44,612 bases of DNA, taken from Parcubacteria group bacterium. Its GTDB lineage: Bacteria > Patescibacteriota > Minisyncoccia > Phycocordibacterales > Phycocordibacteraceae. The notes beneath the pieces are model-generated. The model did no database searches. It was not told the DNA's origin and saw only the letters and a list, made by a program, of their open reading frames with translations. The stretch is taken from contig JAQBRJ010000012.1 in NCBI GenBank assembly GCA_028286545.1, positions 1 to 44,612 of the forward strand, in the 5' to 3' direction. This document shows, piece after piece, positions 505-41,423 of this stretch (its first letter is position 1; each line of letters begins with the position of its first letter). Both the position numbers and the translations under genes were made by a program.

Positions 505-1173
505 ATGAATCAGTCCATGCAGTTTTACAGCTATATTTTCTTTGATGCTGAACCGAGTATTACGACTCTTTCCAAGGACGCGCTCGAAGCTGCGAAGAAA
601 GAGTTTATTAAGTGCATTGAAGCTAATGCGCATATCAATACCCGTAGCTACGCAACGCTCGCATTGCGACAAGGAACACGATTCATGCTTCATATGAATG
701 CTGAATCACCTGACGCTATTCAACTTTTTGTACGTGATCTTCTTCACACGACTCTTGGTACACACCTTCGCATTTCATACACGCTCTTTGGTCTTCGTCG
801 CACCTCGCAGTACGCGGGTAAGCACTCACCAAAGGAAAGTGATTTCCACGCACCGCACCGCTACCTTGTGGTATATCCGTTTACTAAAACTATCGAATGG
901 CATCTCATGCCATTCGAAGAACGTCGCGGCATCATGAAAGCGCATGTGGATGTGGGACGAACCTTCAGTGACACTATTTCGCAAATGCTCCTCTACGCCT
1001 ATGGCATCGATGACCATGAGTTTATCGTGTCGTACCAAATGGATTCTCTCGAAGATTTTCAGACGCTAGTGATGAGTATGCGCGAAACAGAATCTCGCAG
1101 GCACACAAAGAACGACCTGCCGATATTTACGTGTATTTCTATGCCGCTTGAAGAAACACTCTCGATGCTATGA
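505..1173 (+). CDS. hemQ: coproheme decarboxylase (HemQ/ChdC), chlorite dismutase family
   Basis: This 222-residue protein should decarboxylate iron-coproporphyrin III to haem b, the last step of the coproporphyrin-dependent pathway. The core reads YLVVYPFTKTIEWHLMPFEERR then KAHVDVGR. Tyr124 of YPF and His147 have the 23-residue spacing of the catalytic Tyr and proximal haem His of actinobacterial ChdC as I recall them, and Gln160 lies 13 residues after the His, where Listeria HemQ has its distal Gln and true chlorite dismutases have Arg nearby. I chose ATG 505 because it follows a TATAAT by 6 nt; an upstream frame extension from 460 overlaps hemD and adds nothing family-like. The stop overlaps the hemE start as ATGA. 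The haem neighbours make chlorite dismutase activity unlikely. Confidence 0.85.
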   Translation: MNQSMQFYSYIFFDAEPSITTLSKDALEAAKKEFIKCIEANAHINTRSYATLALRQGTRFMLHMNAESPDAIQLFVRDLLHTTLGTHLRISYTLFGLRRTSQYAGKHSPKESDFHAPHRYLVVYPFTKTIEWHLMPFEERRGIMKAHVDVGRTFSDTISQMLLYAYGIDDHEFIVSYQMDSLEDFQTLVMSMRETESRRHTKNDLPIFTCISMPLEETLSML

Positions 1174-2180
1174 ACGAAAGTAATTTTCTAAAGGCATGTC
1201 GCGGTGAGCAGGTAGAACGTATCCCGGTGTGGTTTATGCGCCAAGCGGGTCGCTCATTGCCGGGGTATCGCAAACTTCGTGAGACTCACGATGTGCTTTC
1301 GCTCACACAGACTCCCGAACTTGCTGCACAAGTGAGTATGGAGCCGATTGACCTCCTGGGCGTAGACGCTGCGATTCTTTTTGCCGACATCATGCTGCTT
1401 CCTATTGCGATGGGAATAAAGGTAGAGATTATTGAAGGCATCGGTCCAGTTATTGACGACCCCATTGATACTCCCGAGAAAGTCGCTCGTCTTGAGAAAT
1501 TTACATCAGAGCGAATCGATTACTTACAGGAAACCATTCGTATATTGCGTAGCCAGCTCAAGGTTCCGTTGATTGGGTTTTCGGGCGCGCCATTCACACT
1601 CGCGAGTTATCTCATCGAAGGGAAGCCGAGCCGCACGTGGTTCAAGACTAAGCGTTTCATGCTCGAACATCCTGAAGCGTGGAATATACTCATGGCAACG
1701 CTCTCAGATGGCATTATTGAATACCTTAAAACGCAGATTGCGGCAGGGGCGCAGGCAGTGCAGCTGTTTGATAGCTGGGTCGGAGCACTTTCTCCAGAGC
1801 AATATCGTACCTATGTATTGCCTCACGTGCAGCGCATCTTTGCAGGACTCAAAGATCAGAAGGTTCCGCGCCTGCACTTCGCAACGAATACTGCTGGTAT
1901 GCTCGAAGATTTTGCGAACGTTGATTGCGAAGTGATTGGTGTTGATTGGCGTGTGAGCATTGGCGATGCGAAGCGTCGCATTGGCACCAAGTCGCTCCAA
2001 GGAAACCTCGATCCTGCGACGCTTCTTGCCCCTTGGGGAACTATCACACAAACCACTGACCGTTTGCTTGCAGAGATAAATCCAAAGCAAGGATACATAT
2101 TCAACCTTGGTCATGGCATGCCGCCGGAAGCAGACGATATGGTTATCAAGAAACTCGTGGAGTATGTCCACGGAAAATAA
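1170..2180 (+). CDS. hemE: uroporphyrinogen decarboxylase
   Basis: HemE removes four acetate carboxyls from uroporphyrinogen III to give coproporphyrinogen III in the cytosol. The 336-residue length is normal. Family motifs are clear: the N-terminal PVWFMRQAGRSLPGYR (residues 20-35) with the substrate-binding RQAGR loop, the catalytic aspartate in AAILFADIMLLP (Asp73), GFSGAPFTLASYLIEG in the middle and HFATNTAGMLEDF near the C-terminus. The start codon overlaps the hemQ stop by 4 nt and the 3' end overlaps hemH by 17 nt, so translation of the three genes is probably coupled. No separate promoter is visible. Confidence 0.95.
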   Translation: MNESNFLKACRGEQVERIPVWFMRQAGRSLPGYRKLRETHDVLSLTQTPELAAQVSMEPIDLLGVDAAILFADIMLLPIAMGIKVEIIEGIGPVIDDPIDTPEKVARLEKFTSERIDYLQETIRILRSQLKVPLIGFSGAPFTLASYLIEGKPSRTWFKTKRFMLEHPEAWNILMATLSDGIIEYLKTQIAAGAQAVQLFDSWVGALSPEQYRTYVLPHVQRIFAGLKDQKVPRLHFATNTAGMLEDFANVDCEVIGVDWRVSIGDAKRRIGTKSLQGNLDPATLLAPWGTITQTTDRLLAEINPKQGYIFNLGHGMPPEADDMVIKKLVEYVHGK

Positions 2181-36877: not shown

Positions 36878-37534
36878 ATGTCGAACTCGAACATTTCCGG
36901 CGCAAAGCAGCGCCAGATCAATGCCACTGTTACTTCCATCGTGACGACCAAGCTCGCCACGCTCGATGCGGCGGCGGGTGACCGTCTGATCGGCAAGCTC
37001 GCCGAGCTCGCAGCGCAGGTCGGACCCGGCATTATCGCCGCGATCGACCAGCTCTCCGCCCTTCCGCCCGTCGTGCTGAAGCTGGTCAACGCCAGCGTCC
37101 AGCTCGACGCCATCGCGTCCTACGATCCGTCGGGATTCAAAACCCGCAAGGGTCTCTGGGTCTCCGATGATTTCCATCGGCGTGTCGGCTCGAAAGCCAA
37201 GCCGGTCAAGGATTTGGGCGCAATCACGCTCACGTCCGGCGACCTCGTCAAGAACGCCTATGATCAGGAGATCAAGGCCGACCCCGTCATGCCCGCGAAC
37301 CATGTGTTCGAGAGCGAGTCGGAATTCGTCGCCCATCTCGACCAGATGATCTCCAAGCAGCCGAACGGTGAAGATGGCGACCTCAACAACGAAGGCTACT
37401 GGAACATCTTCTATGTCGCGGGCTGCGTGGTCCGCGTGCGCTGGAACTCCGACGGCCGGGGGTGGGACGTCAGCGCGTGGAGCCTCGACGACGACGACTG
37501 GGACGCTGGCTATCGTGCGTTCGGTTGCAACTGA
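36878..37534 (+). CDS. DGR target (variable) protein
   Basis: The 218-residue protein carries the variable repeat at its C-terminus (residues 180-218). The variable region VVRVRWNSDGRGW then SLDDDDWDAGYRAFG has the Trp/Asp pattern of ligand-binding C-type-lectin-like DGR domains seen in CPR. Twelve residues differ from the template-coded ones (186, 188, 193, 195, 197, 199, 200, 202, 207, 209, 212, 217). The N-terminal part is helical (NATVTSIVTTKLATLDAAAGDRLIGKLAELAAQV), then FKTRKGLWVSDDFHRRVGSKAKP; no signal peptide or membrane helix is seen, so it may act inside the cell or leave by an unusual route. A Shine-Dalgarno AAGGA lies 6 nt before the ATG, and G+C is near 68% in a 60-base sample against about 45% in the neighbouring gene, suggesting transfer. 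Confidence 0.88.
   Translation: MSNSNISGAKQRQINATVTSIVTTKLATLDAAAGDRLIGKLAELAAQVGPGIIAAIDQLSALPPVVLKLVNASVQLDAIASYDPSGFKTRKGLWVSDDFHRRVGSKAKPVKDLGAITLTSGDLVKNAYDQEIKADPVMPANHVFESESEFVAHLDQMISKQPNGEDGDLNNEGYWNIFYVAGCVVRVRWNSDGRGWDVSAWSLDDDDWDAGYRAFGCN
37415..37532 (+). repeat. DGR variable repeat (VR)
   Basis: These 118 bp align without gaps to the template repeat 450 bp downstream. There are 17 mismatches, all at template adenines: 13 A-to-G, 3 A-to-C, 1 A-to-T; no other base differs. The last 3' invariant block (37512-37527, ATCGTGCGTTCGGTTG) is a candidate initiation-of-homing segment. The repeat runs into the first base of the stop codon. Confidence 0.95.
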
Positions 37535-37795: not shown

Positions 37796-37978
37796 ATGTC
37801 CCAGATACGATTCAGCCTAGCGAGTATTCTACAGGCAGTGGTACGGATGGTTTCAGGTACGAGAGTCGCAGGCTGCGTGGTCAACGTGAACTGGAACTCC
37901 GACAACCGGAAGTGGAACGTCAACACGTGGAACCTCGACGACGACAACTGGAACGCTGGCAATCGTGCGTTCGGTTGA
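37796..37978 (+). CDS. 60-codon ORF running through the template repeat
   Basis: ATG 37796 is preceded by GGAGG (37786-37790) and opens a 60-codon frame that reads the template repeat in the same frame as the target protein, giving CVVNVNWNSDNRKWNV and so on, and stops at a TGA inside the template. The first 23 residues do not resemble the target protein. It may be translated, a relic of a second target gene, or chance. I rate translation as unproven. Confidence 0.3.
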   Translation: MSQIRFSLASILQAVVRMVSGTRVAGCVVNVNWNSDNRKWNVNTWNLDDDNWNAGNRAFG

Positions 37979-37982
37979 AACT
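37865..37982 (+). repeat. DGR template repeat (TR)
   Basis: This 118-bp copy holds 31 adenines, 17 of them changed in the variable repeat. Adenines are grouped in AAC/AAT codons (VNVNWNSDNRKWNVNTWNLDDD frame), the DGR codon design that allows wide amino-acid change without stop codons. A template TGA at 37976-37978 is TGC in the variable repeat. Confidence 0.95.
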
Positions 37983-37991
37983 CCCATATTT

Positions 37992-38014
37992 CTCCCGCGT
38001 CTAGTACGCGGGAG
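37992..38014 (+). terminator. terminator of template RNA
   Basis: A perfect 9-bp GC-rich stem CTCCCGCGT/ACGCGGGAG with a CTAGT loop is followed by TTTTCGTTT, ending the template transcript about 370 nt from its predicted start. The avd stop codon lies in the loop on the other strand. Confidence 0.8.
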
Positions 38015-38348
38015 TTTTCGTTTCAAGTCCACGTCTCCACCCGCCTAGCATCTTTCCGATCTCGAAGAGCCGTTCAGAAAGAGTCCCGTATTTGCTGTTG
38101 TCCAAAGCTTTGATTTCCCACGAGACACGCAAAAGGAACTTGAGTGCATCAAGCTTCCGGATTGCTTCTGTTATCAATACGAGTTTCTCCTCCTTGCCCT
38201 GATAACTCGCTGCCCAGAGCAACTCTGCTATCTCGATAAATAGAATGTCTATCTTGTCCCCGAGGGTGTACCGGGACTTCTTAGGAAAATGGTCTCGGTA
38301 TTCATGCCAAAGCTTATATACTGAAATACTATGCTCGATAATCGGCAC
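38001..38348 (-). CDS. avd: DGR accessory variability determinant (Avd)
   Basis: The 115-residue protein is the four-helix-bundle Avd that binds the reverse transcriptase and template RNA. It reads IIEHSISVYKLWHEYRDHFPKKSRYTLGDKID (helix 1 and turn), IEIAELLWAASYQGKEEKL, RKLDALKFLLRVSWEIKALDNSKYGTLSERLFEIGKMLGGWRRGLE, a typical bAvd. The start is GTG at 38348. In most DGRs avd is on the same strand as the RT; here it is opposite and head to head, and its first 18 bases overlap the predicted RT start (38331). The 13-G run lies 8-20 nt upstream of its start codon, in its leader or promoter. Confidence 0.85.
   Translation of the reverse strand: MPIIEHSISVYKLWHEYRDHFPKKSRYTLGDKIDILFIEIAELLWAASYQGKEEKLVLITEAIRKLDALKFLLRVSWEIKALDNSKYGTLSERLFEIGKMLGGWRRGLETKTPAY
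38317..38322 (+). promoter_or_regulatory. TATACT -10 box of DGR reverse transcriptase
   Basis: TATACT ends 8 nt before the ATG at 38331, the typical leaderless spacing of this genome, marking 38331 and not 38510 as the RT start. Confidence 0.55.
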
Positions 38349-39370
38349 AAGCTTCGGGGGGGGGGGGGTACATTCATAGTCGGATTCGTATTCAATTTAG
38401 TGATTCTTATCACGATATCATTTCTACCGAAAATCTTCTGAATGCATGGGGCGAGTTCGTTGCAGGGAAGCGAAAGCGGCTTGATGTTCAGGATTTCGAA
38501 CGTCACCTGATGGACAACCTTCTCACGCTTCAAGAAGACTTACTGACAAAGAAATACCGGCATTCGCTATACAAAGCATTTAAGATCACCGACCCGAAAC
38601 CGCGTGATATCCATAAGGCGAGCGTGCGCGACAGGCTTTTGCATCACGCTATCTATCGCAAGCTCTATCCCTTGTTCGAACGGACTTTCATAGCCGATTC
38701 CTACTCGTGTAGGGACGATAAGGGAGTACATAAAGCACTAGAGCGATTCACGAAGTTTATACGCATAGTCTCTCGAAACCACACGAGAACGGCATGGGTA
38801 TTGAAGTGCGATATCCGTAAGTTCTTTGCTTCAATTGATCATTCAGTTCTGAAGGGAATACTGGCTCGCTATATACCAAACGAAGACATTAGGTGGTTGC
38901 TATCTGTAATCATAGATAGTTTTTCCTCAAAAGAAGAGGGTATAGGTTTACCGCTCGGGAATCTTACTTCACAGCTTCTCGTGAATATCTATATGAACGA
39001 GTTCGACCAATTCGCCAAACATCAATTGAAAGTCAAGTACTATCTCCGCTATGCTGATGACTTCACGATTATCTCTGAAGATAAGGAGTGGCTGGTATCG
39101 CTCCTGCCTCGCATTGAAGTATTCCTTCAGGAGAGACTTCGCTTAGTCTTGCACCCAAATAAGGTCTCTATTGCAACTGCCGCTTCCGGTATCGACTTCC
39201 TCGGTTGGGTTCATTTTCCAGATCATACGGTTCTACGGACAACGACGAAGCACCGTATGTTCAGCAAACTTAGGGTGAACCCCAATAAGCCCGAAGTATT
39301 AAATTCCTATCTAGGACTTTTGAAGCACGGGAATACTGAGAAGCTAAAATCACTAATGAATCTCATTTGA
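38331..39370 (+). CDS. DGR reverse transcriptase, frame broken at a 13-G run
   Basis: The RT copies template RNA with adenine errors. From the first in-frame ATG (38510) 286 residues are readable: motif A LKCDIRKFFASID (about 98-110), DGR-type IGLPLGNLTSQLLVNIY (about 145-161), catalytic YADD (181-184) and IDFLGW (about 228-233). The same frame is open back to 38342 and encodes SYHDIISTENLLNAW, then VQDFERHLMDNLLTLQ, a conserved RT N-terminus, but has no ATG, GTG or TTG. ATG 38331, behind a TATACT, is out of frame as read and stops at 38439; 11 or 14 G instead of 13 would join it to the RT and give about 345 residues, the usual size. Hence a phase-variable gene or an assembly error. Confidence 0.85.
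38356..38368. repeat. 13-bp G homopolymer at 5' end of RT gene
   Basis: Thirteen consecutive G, flanked by GCTTC and TACATT, encode glycines in the RT N-terminus on the plus strand and lie just upstream of avd on the minus strand. Length changes would switch the RT reading frame and alter avd leader spacing. Such runs are classic slipped-strand sites. Confidence 0.9.
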
Positions 39371-39401: not shown

Positions 39402-39968
39402 ATGGAAATAAGCCGTCATCGCAAGGTTCTGGGCTTCTATCGGAAGCACAAACGCATGCCGTCTATCACGGAGATCATGGCGATTTTCGGGCTTTCATCG
39501 CGCAGCAGCGGTTTCTATGTAATGCAGCAGCTGGTGAGGGAAGGCGTGGCGGAAAAGGATACTACGGGTAAGTTAGTGCCAGGGCCGGATCTCTTCACGC
39601 TGCCGGTGCTCGGGCGAATCCGTGCCGGATTCGCCGCACCTGCCGAAGAAGAACTCGCAGATACCATAACGATTGGCGAATACTTGCTTGGCCGTCCTGA
39701 AGCAAGCTACCTGCTAAAAGTGGAAGGCGATTCTATGCAGGATGCCGGCATACAGGAAGGGGACATGGTGGTGTTCGAGCGCACGAACGACTATAAACCG
39801 GGCGATATTGTGGTGGCGCTCACGGAAGATGGCTACACCCTGAAATATCTGCGCCGAAAAGAGGGAACATATTATCTGGAAGCGGCGAATGAGAACTATC
39901 CGGATATTCATCCGCGAGAAGGGGAAATTATCGGCGTAGTTATTTCAACATTTCGTACCTATGGCTAA
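39402..39968 (+). CDS. lexA: SOS repressor LexA
   Basis: The 188-residue repressor has an N-terminal winged helix (about 1-65; HRKVLGFYRKHKRMPSITEIMAIFG, then SSGFYVMQQLVREG) and a C-terminal peptidase-like S24 domain. The self-cleavage Ala-Gly bond is at 75-76 in IRAGFAAP, with catalytic Ser111 in VEGDSMQDAGI and Lys148 in YTLKYL. RecA on single-stranded DNA would trigger cleavage. The operator in its own promoter shows autoregulation. A small ORF and a Y-family polymerase gene follow with overlaps, so all are induced together by DNA damage. Confidence 0.93.
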   Translation: MEISRHRKVLGFYRKHKRMPSITEIMAIFGLSSRSSGFYVMQQLVREGVAEKDTTGKLVPGPDLFTLPVLGRIRAGFAAPAEEELADTITIGEYLLGRPEASYLLKVEGDSMQDAGIQEGDMVVFERTNDYKPGDIVVALTEDGYTLKYLRRKEGTYYLEAANENYPDIHPREGEIIGVVISTFRTYG

Positions 39969-40113
39969 GCTCATACCATTTGAACCGTTCTTCGGTGTGT
40001 ATCCGCGTACGGTAGTGAAGCGTTCCTTCTTACGGTTCGCCTCATTCACAGAACGTGAGCGCAAGTACCTGGCGCCTAAAAAGATACTTCGTCTTGCGCC
40101 CGTGCGCATATGA
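39961..40113 (+). CDS. 50-residue small protein between lexA and dinB
   Basis: ATG 39961 overlaps the lexA stop by 8 nt and its TGA overlaps the polymerase ATG as ATGA, so it is embedded in a coupled operon. The product (MAKLIPFEPFFGVYPRTVVK, then RSFLRFASFTERERKYLAPKK, then ILRLAPVRI) is basic and helix-rich with no signal peptide. Nothing similar is known to me; its position makes it an SOS-induced small protein, perhaps a partner or regulator of the polymerase. Confidence 0.6.
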   Translation: MAKLIPFEPFFGVYPRTVVKRSFLRFASFTERERKYLAPKKILRLAPVRI

Positions 40114-41423
40114 GCAGTCCGTTTTCGATACGATCTTTTCCGCGCGCCATCGTGCATTTCGACGGCGACTCGTTCTTCGCCTCGGTAGAGCAACTTATGA
40201 ATCATGAACTGCGCGGGAAGCCGGTGGTAACGGGCGGCGAACGCGGCGCGGCAACTTCGCTTTCGTATGAAGCGAAACAGATGGGTGCGCATCGCGGCAT
40301 GAGCATGCGCGAGATTAAGAAGATATGCCCGGATGTCGTGGTCGTCTCTTCGGACTACACGTCGTATTCCATCTATGCGCGCCGCATGTACAGCATCGTG
40401 CGCTCGTTCACGCCGGATGTTGAGGAATACAGCATCGATGAATGCTTCGCAGATATCACCGGGCTACGCCAGAAATACCACATGCCGTATGAGCAGATCA
40501 CGAAGATGATTCAAGACAAGCTTCGCGCGGACCTTGGGCTCTCATTCAGTGCTGGCCTCGGCCCTAATAAGAGTCTGGCGAAGATCGCTTCGAAATACCG
40601 TAAGCCCGCAGGGCTTACCTGCATTCCTGCGAAAGAGGCCCACGTGTATTTAAAAGATGTGCGCGTAGGGAACGTGTGGGGTATGGGCGGCAGTACCAGT
40701 TTGTATATGCAGAAGCTCGGAATCAATACGGCACTTGAATTCGCGCAGCAGGATGAACACTGGCTTGAGGTGAACAGGATCAGCAAGCCATATCGCGACA
40801 TATGGACGGAGCTCCGGGGCGGCTTCGTGAAGCAGCTAAATACGGCGAGCGATGATTCTATCGGCTCAATTATGAAAACACAGACGTTTACGCCACCTTC
40901 CAGCGACCGTGCCTTCGTGCTTTCACAGCTCGCACGCAATATCGAGGGTGCGTGCAGTAAGGCACGCCGGCACGGCGTGCGGGCCCGTACCTGTTCCTTC
41001 TATCTTAAGACGCAGGATTTTACGTATGCAGGGCTTTCGCTTGAACTCTCACTCCCGCTTGCAGACCCGCGTGAATTTCAGCGCTTAGTGGAAGCGGAAT
41101 TCGATCGCGTATTCAAAGAAGGCGTGCTGTATCGCGCGACCGGCTTCACCCTTCGTTCCATCACGGCAGAACATGCGGTGATGAACGACTTGTTCGGCGA
41201 CAGCGAGCGGGCGGAAACGAAGAGCCGCATTCTTGAAACGCTAGACGGCCTTAATCATAAATTTGGAAGCAACACCGTACACTTCGCCTCGAGTTTCACT
41301 GCGCGTAAGGATGGCGATGCTCATCAGGAACGGCGCGCCCTGCGGGCGCGCCGTCGCATTACTCTTCCAATAGAAAAGAAGCGTAAATCGCTGAACATCC
41401 CGTATTTAGGCATCGTTCGCTAA
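40110..41423 (+). CDS. dinB: Y-family DNA polymerase (DinB/UmuC type)
   Basis: The 437-residue translesion polymerase has the Y-family catalytic palm motifs IVHFDGDSFFASVE (about 14-27) and EYSIDECFADI (about 110-120), with LGLSFSAGLGPNKSLAKIASKYRKP next, followed by a helix-hairpin-helix thumb (WGMGGSTSLYMQKLGI) and a little-finger domain (about 260-380). The C-terminal tail is Arg/Lys-rich. Pol IV and UmuC types cannot be separated with certainty. It is the third gene behind the LexA-controlled promoter, so it should be SOS induced. Confidence 0.9.
   Translation: MSSPFSIRSFPRAIVHFDGDSFFASVEQLMNHELRGKPVVTGGERGAATSLSYEAKQMGAHRGMSMREIKKICPDVVVVSSDYTSYSIYARRMYSIVRSFTPDVEEYSIDECFADITGLRQKYHMPYEQITKMIQDKLRADLGLSFSAGLGPNKSLAKIASKYRKPAGLTCIPAKEAHVYLKDVRVGNVWGMGGSTSLYMQKLGINTALEFAQQDEHWLEVNRISKPYRDIWTELRGGFVKQLNTASDDSIGSIMKTQTFTPPSSDRAFVLSQLARNIEGACSKARRHGVRARTCSFYLKTQDFTYAGLSLELSLPLADPREFQRLVEAEFDRVFKEGVLYRATGFTLRSITAEHAVMNDLFGDSERAETKSRILETLDGLNHKFGSNTVHFASSFTARKDGDAHQERRALRARRRITLPIEKKRKSLNIPYLGIVR

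Follow-up and report, generated by a model that had tools for sequence, protein, structure and literature searches.

A slippable repeat at the avd/RT junction of Patescibacteria DGRs as a candidate phase-variation switch

Can the mutagenesis machinery of a diversity-generating retroelement (DGR) be turned on and off by a simple-sequence repeat, and if so, through which of its genes would such a switch act? The question is raised by a run of 13 guanines (G13) in the genome of a Parcubacteria group bacterium, which a sequence-only reading of the locus had proposed to make the reverse transcriptase (RT) of the element phase-variable. We followed up this proposal in the window, i.e., the whole stretch of 44,612 nucleotides that was analyzed (GenBank assembly GCA_028286545.1, contig JAQBRJ010000012.1), and in related loci.

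The DGR and its run of 13 guanines

The G13 run, which is the sole G/C run of at least 9 nt on both strands of the 670,858-base genome, lies between the divergent avd (accessory variability determinant; minus strand) and RT (plus strand) genes of an intact DGR (Table 1). The RT is of the DGR type, with a match to RVT_1, a match to phrog_1423 at 4.5e-111, and a best PDB match to the 8ub7 set (1e-45), which we take to be the BPP-1 DGR RT. Avd is identified by a bAvd match above the Pfam cut-off and by an Avd phrog match, and its DivGenRetAVD score of 69.1 bits lies below the cut-off of 80 for that model. The template repeat (TR) and the variable repeat (VR) differ exclusively at TR adenines (17/17 differences over the 117 nt compared), a pattern from which we infer that the element has been active and has mutated its own target. 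For the target gene, whose VR would be expected to lie in a C-type-lectin fold, sequence searches found no family match. Further DGR copies in the genome were considered and rejected, there being one RT and one TR/VR pair only.

The TR is situated within a short ORF (37796-37978, 60 aa), its frame there being like that of the VR, and this ORF may be a mere relic of a duplicated target end. Two ORFs directly downstream of RT (39402-39968 and 40110-41423) look, by eye, like a LexA-type repressor and a Y-family (DinB/UmuC-like) polymerase, that is, an SOS-type pair.

Much of what the sequence-only reading had described around the run was borne out. The run itself is present in the sequence; the RT frame is open from 38342, closed upstream by TAA (38339-38341), and free of ATG, GTG, or TTG before ATG 38510; and the conserved DGR-RT N terminus that had been recognized in this frame comprises a block, HDIIS-ENLL-AW, that is kept in relatives. 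Because ATG 38510 lies downstream of this block, it is, judged by sequence comparison, not credible as the native RT start. ATG 38331, 8 nt past TATACT, is indeed out of the RT frame at 13 G, and the prediction that 11 or 14 G would fuse it to RT in a product of about 345 residues agrees with computed lengths of 345 and 346 residues. Over the tested range of 8 to 16 G, 8 G likewise joins the two (344 residues), and at all other lengths ATG 38331 opens a product of only 14 to 37 residues; with 13 G, as assembled, this RT start is OFF. What the earlier reading had omitted is the minus-strand avd gene abutting the run, the ATG at 38377 in the same length phase, and the ATT codon at 38384-38386. 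From ATG 38377, avd comprises 123, 124, or 125 residues at 8, 11, or 14 G, respectively, and the avd and RT frames of the window both join at these lengths only. Leaderless starts would fit the window: TANNNT is found 5-8 nt before the ATG in 8 of 32 long ORFs vs 8 of 184 internal ATGs, and a Shine-Dalgarno-like site in only 2 of the 32.

Table 1. Features of the window and of additional repeat-bearing RT loci of the sister group (positions refer to the window unless another locus is named).
Locus	Feature	Position	Strand	Remark
Window	Target gene, 218 aa	36878..37534	+	VR forms its 3' end
Window	Variable repeat (VR)	37416..37532	+	17 differences from TR
Window	Template repeat (TR)	37866..37982	+	
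Window	avd, from GTG 38348 past the run	38001..38348	-	joined to ATG 38377 only at 8/11/14 G
Window	TATACT, -10-like box	38317..38322	+	8 nt before ATG 38331
Window	RT gene from ATG 38331	38331..39370	+	joined only at 8/11/14 G; body open 38342-39370
Window	G13 simple-sequence repeat, proposed switch	38356..38368		C13 on avd strand
Window	TACATT, -10-like box	38369..38374	+	abuts 3' end of run; site of RT -10 in many relatives
Window	ATG joining avd through the run in ON phase	38375..38377	-	
Window	ATT codon	38384..38386	+	homologous to RT start ATG of relatives
Window	ATC	38402..38404	-	relatives have the antisense avd start ATG here (RT His codon CAT = GAT in the window)
Window	TATCGT, conserved antisense avd -10 box	38412..38417	-	7 nt before avd start position
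L169	G18	1963-1980		RT split in two frames
L170	Short GA tract			RT split
L171	(GA)6.5 + G9	1214-1235		RT split in two frames
L172	(GA)11	815-836		RT split in two frames
L196	(GA)13.5	1806-1832		RT continuous
L230	GA, same place in RT	about RT+533		

The junction repeat among relatives

Conservation of the run among relatives, a check that the earlier reading had suggested, was assessed with 196 related whole genomes, GTDB contigs, IMG/VR, and further loci fetched later, giving a set of 149 distinct loci in which avd and RT diverge (one genome per species). A slippable repeat is kept at the avd/RT junction in 122 of them: 111 are G runs (G7 to G13), and the remainder are (GA)n, five tetranucleotides (with the units CTGA, TTCG, TTGG, ATTG, and TGGC), and one heptanucleotide. 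Unit lengths at the junction are thus 1, 2, 4, and 7, never 3 or 6. Because so many loci keep the repeat and only 16 such repeats occur in the remaining 763 kb of the same loci outside the junction and RT, a chance origin of the junction tract is excluded. Polyproline coding as a reason for the run was rejected, given that the non-G repeats code for other residues and have no units divisible by 3. The named hosts span Kaiser-, Nomura-, Sung-, Yanofsky-, Kerfeld-, Komeili-, Uhr-, Buchanan-, Moran-, and Wolfebacteria and other groups of Patescibacteria, to which DGR clade 2 is restricted (Roux et al. 2021, PMC8144416).

The nearest pairs of loci (86-90% identity) differ in the length or the unit of the repeat. 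At the same site, 10.5 units of GGTT (L058) are found vs 7 units of GATT (L059) in a pair with 90% identity over 1,395 nt, and a locus 85% identical to the latter carries G9 (L032); another pair with 86% identity has G8 (L046) vs G9 (L108). On a FastTree tree, repeat type needs 22 changes and presence/absence 13, both of which are rough counts because many branches are weak. A search of IMG/VR for near-identical contigs with another run length returned the same contig only, and no G/C run of at least 8 was found in any of the more distant viral RT loci (L116-L148).

Some assemblies stumble at the repeat, with an N at the G9 end in L021 and L110, an N gap before G9 in L102, and contigs that begin 12 and 10 nt before the run in L043 and L060, respectively, which is what a tract of mixed length or difficulties in sequencing would produce. 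A generic search for a run plus a -10 pattern produced 70 unsorted matches. Other long G runs in same-genus genomes were considered as further DGRs and rejected, since 20 sampled stretches with other G/C runs of at least 9 (L149-L168) held no recognizable RT or Avd. Several of these runs lie less than 50 nt from a contig end, and the runs in these stretches may be further contingency loci.

avd and RT as the putatively switched genes

In nearly all repeat loci, the avd frame traverses the repeat, which in most relatives sits in the 5' part of the coding sequence. An upstream ATG within 60 nt, typically opposite a conserved RT histidine codon, opens avd in 118 of the 122 repeat loci, in most cases at just one of the three length phases, with avd frames called from tblastn positions so that a few loci are possibly misassigned. 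As assembled, avd is in frame (ON) in 23 of these 118 loci and OFF in the other 95, compared to 25 of 27 loci without a junction repeat in which avd is in frame with an ATG (Fisher 9e-13). Where a single phase opens avd, 13 loci are in frame and each of the two out-of-frame phases has 44; the share of in-frame avd is below one third (p = 0.001), a deficit that would fit OFF being the prevailing state in the majority sequenced.

The ATG antisense to the RT N terminus is supported as the real avd start because the RT codons in this region keep signals of which RT itself has no need. Here, 75 of 76 RT histidines are encoded by CAT (57% elsewhere in RT), 45 of 47 aspartates by GAT (59%), and 74 of 92 isoleucines by ATC (32%); together, these synonymous choices keep TATCNT-N7-ATG on the avd strand. 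A TANNNT box at a distance of exactly 7 nt precedes the antisense avd ATG in 81 of 95 loci but only 35 of the 954 remaining antisense ATGs of RT; the p-value of 2e-77 is overstated, as related loci are not independent. The avd frame is without any ATG, GTG, or TTG past the repeat in 35 repeat loci, and many others have a TTG or GTG there, like GTG 38348 in the window, that could yield some Avd in OFF cells. What counts against avd switching in the window is the loss of the conserved avd ATG (ATC).

The earlier claim that the run switches the RT stands insofar as a repeat of the phase-variation type is placed on a DGR and RT is a plausible direct target here, with no downstream start and an ATG 38331 that joins at 8/11/14 G. 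It does not extend to most relatives, in which RT starts past the repeat and the avd frame passes through it instead. An in-frame RT ATG lies past the repeat in 84 of the 122 repeat loci, with an RT-frame stop between this ATG and the repeat in 29 of the 84, so that RT is not translated through the repeat in most relatives, and RT translation was rejected as a general target for these. That the run acts on RT alone, by bringing ATG 38331 into the RT frame, is therefore unlikely. Such a switch would agree with the window, where no standard RT start exists past the run and TATACT-N8-ATG 38331 precedes it, with the 27 of 121 repeat loci, window included, in which RT is without ATG, GTG, or TTG past the repeat, and with the repeats inside RT of a sister group (see below). 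However, the avd frame crosses the same run in the same phase, and the conservation of the site is not due to RT alone because most relatives start RT beyond it.

Among the 27 loci without a downstream RT start, an upstream ATG opens RT in 25, and in all of these (25/25) an RT-opening phase also opens avd, so one slip would switch both genes. This shared phase is likely geometric: each gene starts opposite codons of the other, so that the phase in which the two frames are codon-aligned opens both. Since the codons replacing the RT start in the other such loci inspected (CGA, CAA, AGG, AAG, and CGG) are no start codons and the window has ATT at this place, TATACT-N8-ATG 38331 is favoured, though not proved, as the RT start of the window; initiation at ATT 38384 is conceivable in principle. 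Because the avd ATG is ATC and GTG 38348 stays past the run, the switch in this genome may be tighter for RT than for avd.

Switching of RT only appears, from the placement of its repeats, to occur in the sister group, which is related at about 50% RT identity. These loci have no junction repeat and overlapping avd and RT starts, often as CATATG, and in several of them RT itself contains a repeat, immediately ahead of the PIGNLTSQ motif (Table 1), which suggests that the same machine is interrupted at another point by slippable repeats. In L173, (GA)13.5 (1060-1086, oriented to RT) lies just before RT and the sole Avd-like match is downstream of RT, possibly a different DGR layout with a repeat.

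Similarly unlikely is that the repeat tunes transcription by lying in the -35/-10 spacer of an RT promoter. In 40 of the 111 G-run loci, the end of the repeat directly borders a TANNNT box (background 1.45% per position), and 25 of them have an ATG 5-8 nt further; among the 11 non-G repeat loci, the box occurs in just 2, neither of which has a following ATG. The evidence for a coding-frame role in avd is strong, and a spacer effect could act in addition.

It is quite improbable that a tract of fixed length yields a constant fraction of Avd or RT through programmed frameshifting or slippage of the polymerase: slippery runs can support frameshifting and out-of-frame lengths dominate, but a programmed shift needs a constant offset, in contrast to the even 44:44 split between the out-of-frame phases with 13 loci in frame, and GA, tetra-, and heptanucleotide tracts typify replication slippage rather than ribosomal slippage. 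Least likely of all is the artefact that the earlier reading had itself put up as an alternative, a G run truly fixed in frame and miscounted as 13, since, error-prone as G runs this long are and off by one as short-read assemblies may be, it is ill-matched with a tract in 122/149 loci from many projects that is replaced at the same site by GA, tetra-, and heptanucleotide repeats and has frames at 13:44:44, not in random thirds; these swaps of repeat type also led us to reject assembly error as a general explanation.

The proposed switch and its meaning

We consider it highly probable (roughly 0.8) that the G13 run is a contingency-type repeat that makes DGR mutagenesis phase-variable, via avd in most relatives and via avd and RT together in a minority that includes the window. 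The repeat sits at the overlap of the antisense 5' ends of two divergent, apparently leaderless genes, and replication slippage in living cells would alter it by whole units of 1, 2, 4, or 7 nt and thereby shift the frame. In most relatives, the avd message would begin at the ATG opposite the sequence for the RT N terminus, its translation would run through the repeat, and a slip of one unit would bring Avd in or out of frame. Because retrohoming requires both Avd and RT in the reconstituted BPP-1 DGR (PMC12875486), mutation of the target is expected in ON cells but not in OFF cells; with the Avd protein lost, RT should no longer diversify the target and mutagenesis would stop. In the minority represented by the window, one length phase (8/11/14 G here) would open both Avd and RT, the 13 G of the assembly would be OFF, and RT protein would be lost as well. 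An extra transcriptional effect is possible via the TANNNT box for RT that abuts the repeat.

Contingency loci that vary in phase by slipped-strand mispairing are well known from the poly-G and tetranucleotide tracts of Neisseria, Haemophilus, and Campylobacter and mostly switch surface structures or restriction-modification genes. Like them, the junction repeat is built from mono-, di-, tetra-, or heptanucleotide units, none of a length divisible by 3, lies close to the 5' end of an ORF (avd, and in the window it precedes the RT body as well), and comes in ON and OFF lengths among relatives (23 vs 95 of 118), but it differs in that a hypermutation machine would be switched and that one tract can gate two antisense genes. 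Phase variation through a promoter spacer is known from the poly-G tract of Neisseria porA; the run similarly abuts an RT -10-like box in about a third of G-run loci, yet this arrangement is absent with non-G repeats and the main frame evidence is coding. BPP-1-type DGRs share the DGR-type RT, Avd, and a TR/VR pair with adenine-only differences, whereas avd here overlaps the RT start in antisense orientation and the overlap holds a slippable repeat. No title or abstract reporting a phase-variable DGR emerged from full-text literature searches, which cover subscription papers patchily and leave its absence unproven; the parts are of known kinds, and their combination is not described within the literature searched.

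Somewhat more tentatively, it seems likely that two-tier diversification evolved repeatedly in Patescibacteria, with slippage setting for each cell whether Avd, RT, or, through their antisense overlap, both together can be made and a silent majority accompanied by a small hypermutating fraction. If true, the control of the DGR would be an inbuilt genetic one, exerted on a hypermutator by a hypermutable repeat, and this would account for the ability of very small genomes to keep a mutagenesis system without bearing its load all the time. The proportion of cells whose DGR is in the ON frame could then be read directly from repeat lengths in existing metagenomic reads, and many avd and RT genes of Patescibacteria may bear wrong start annotations or labels as frameshifted pseudogenes.
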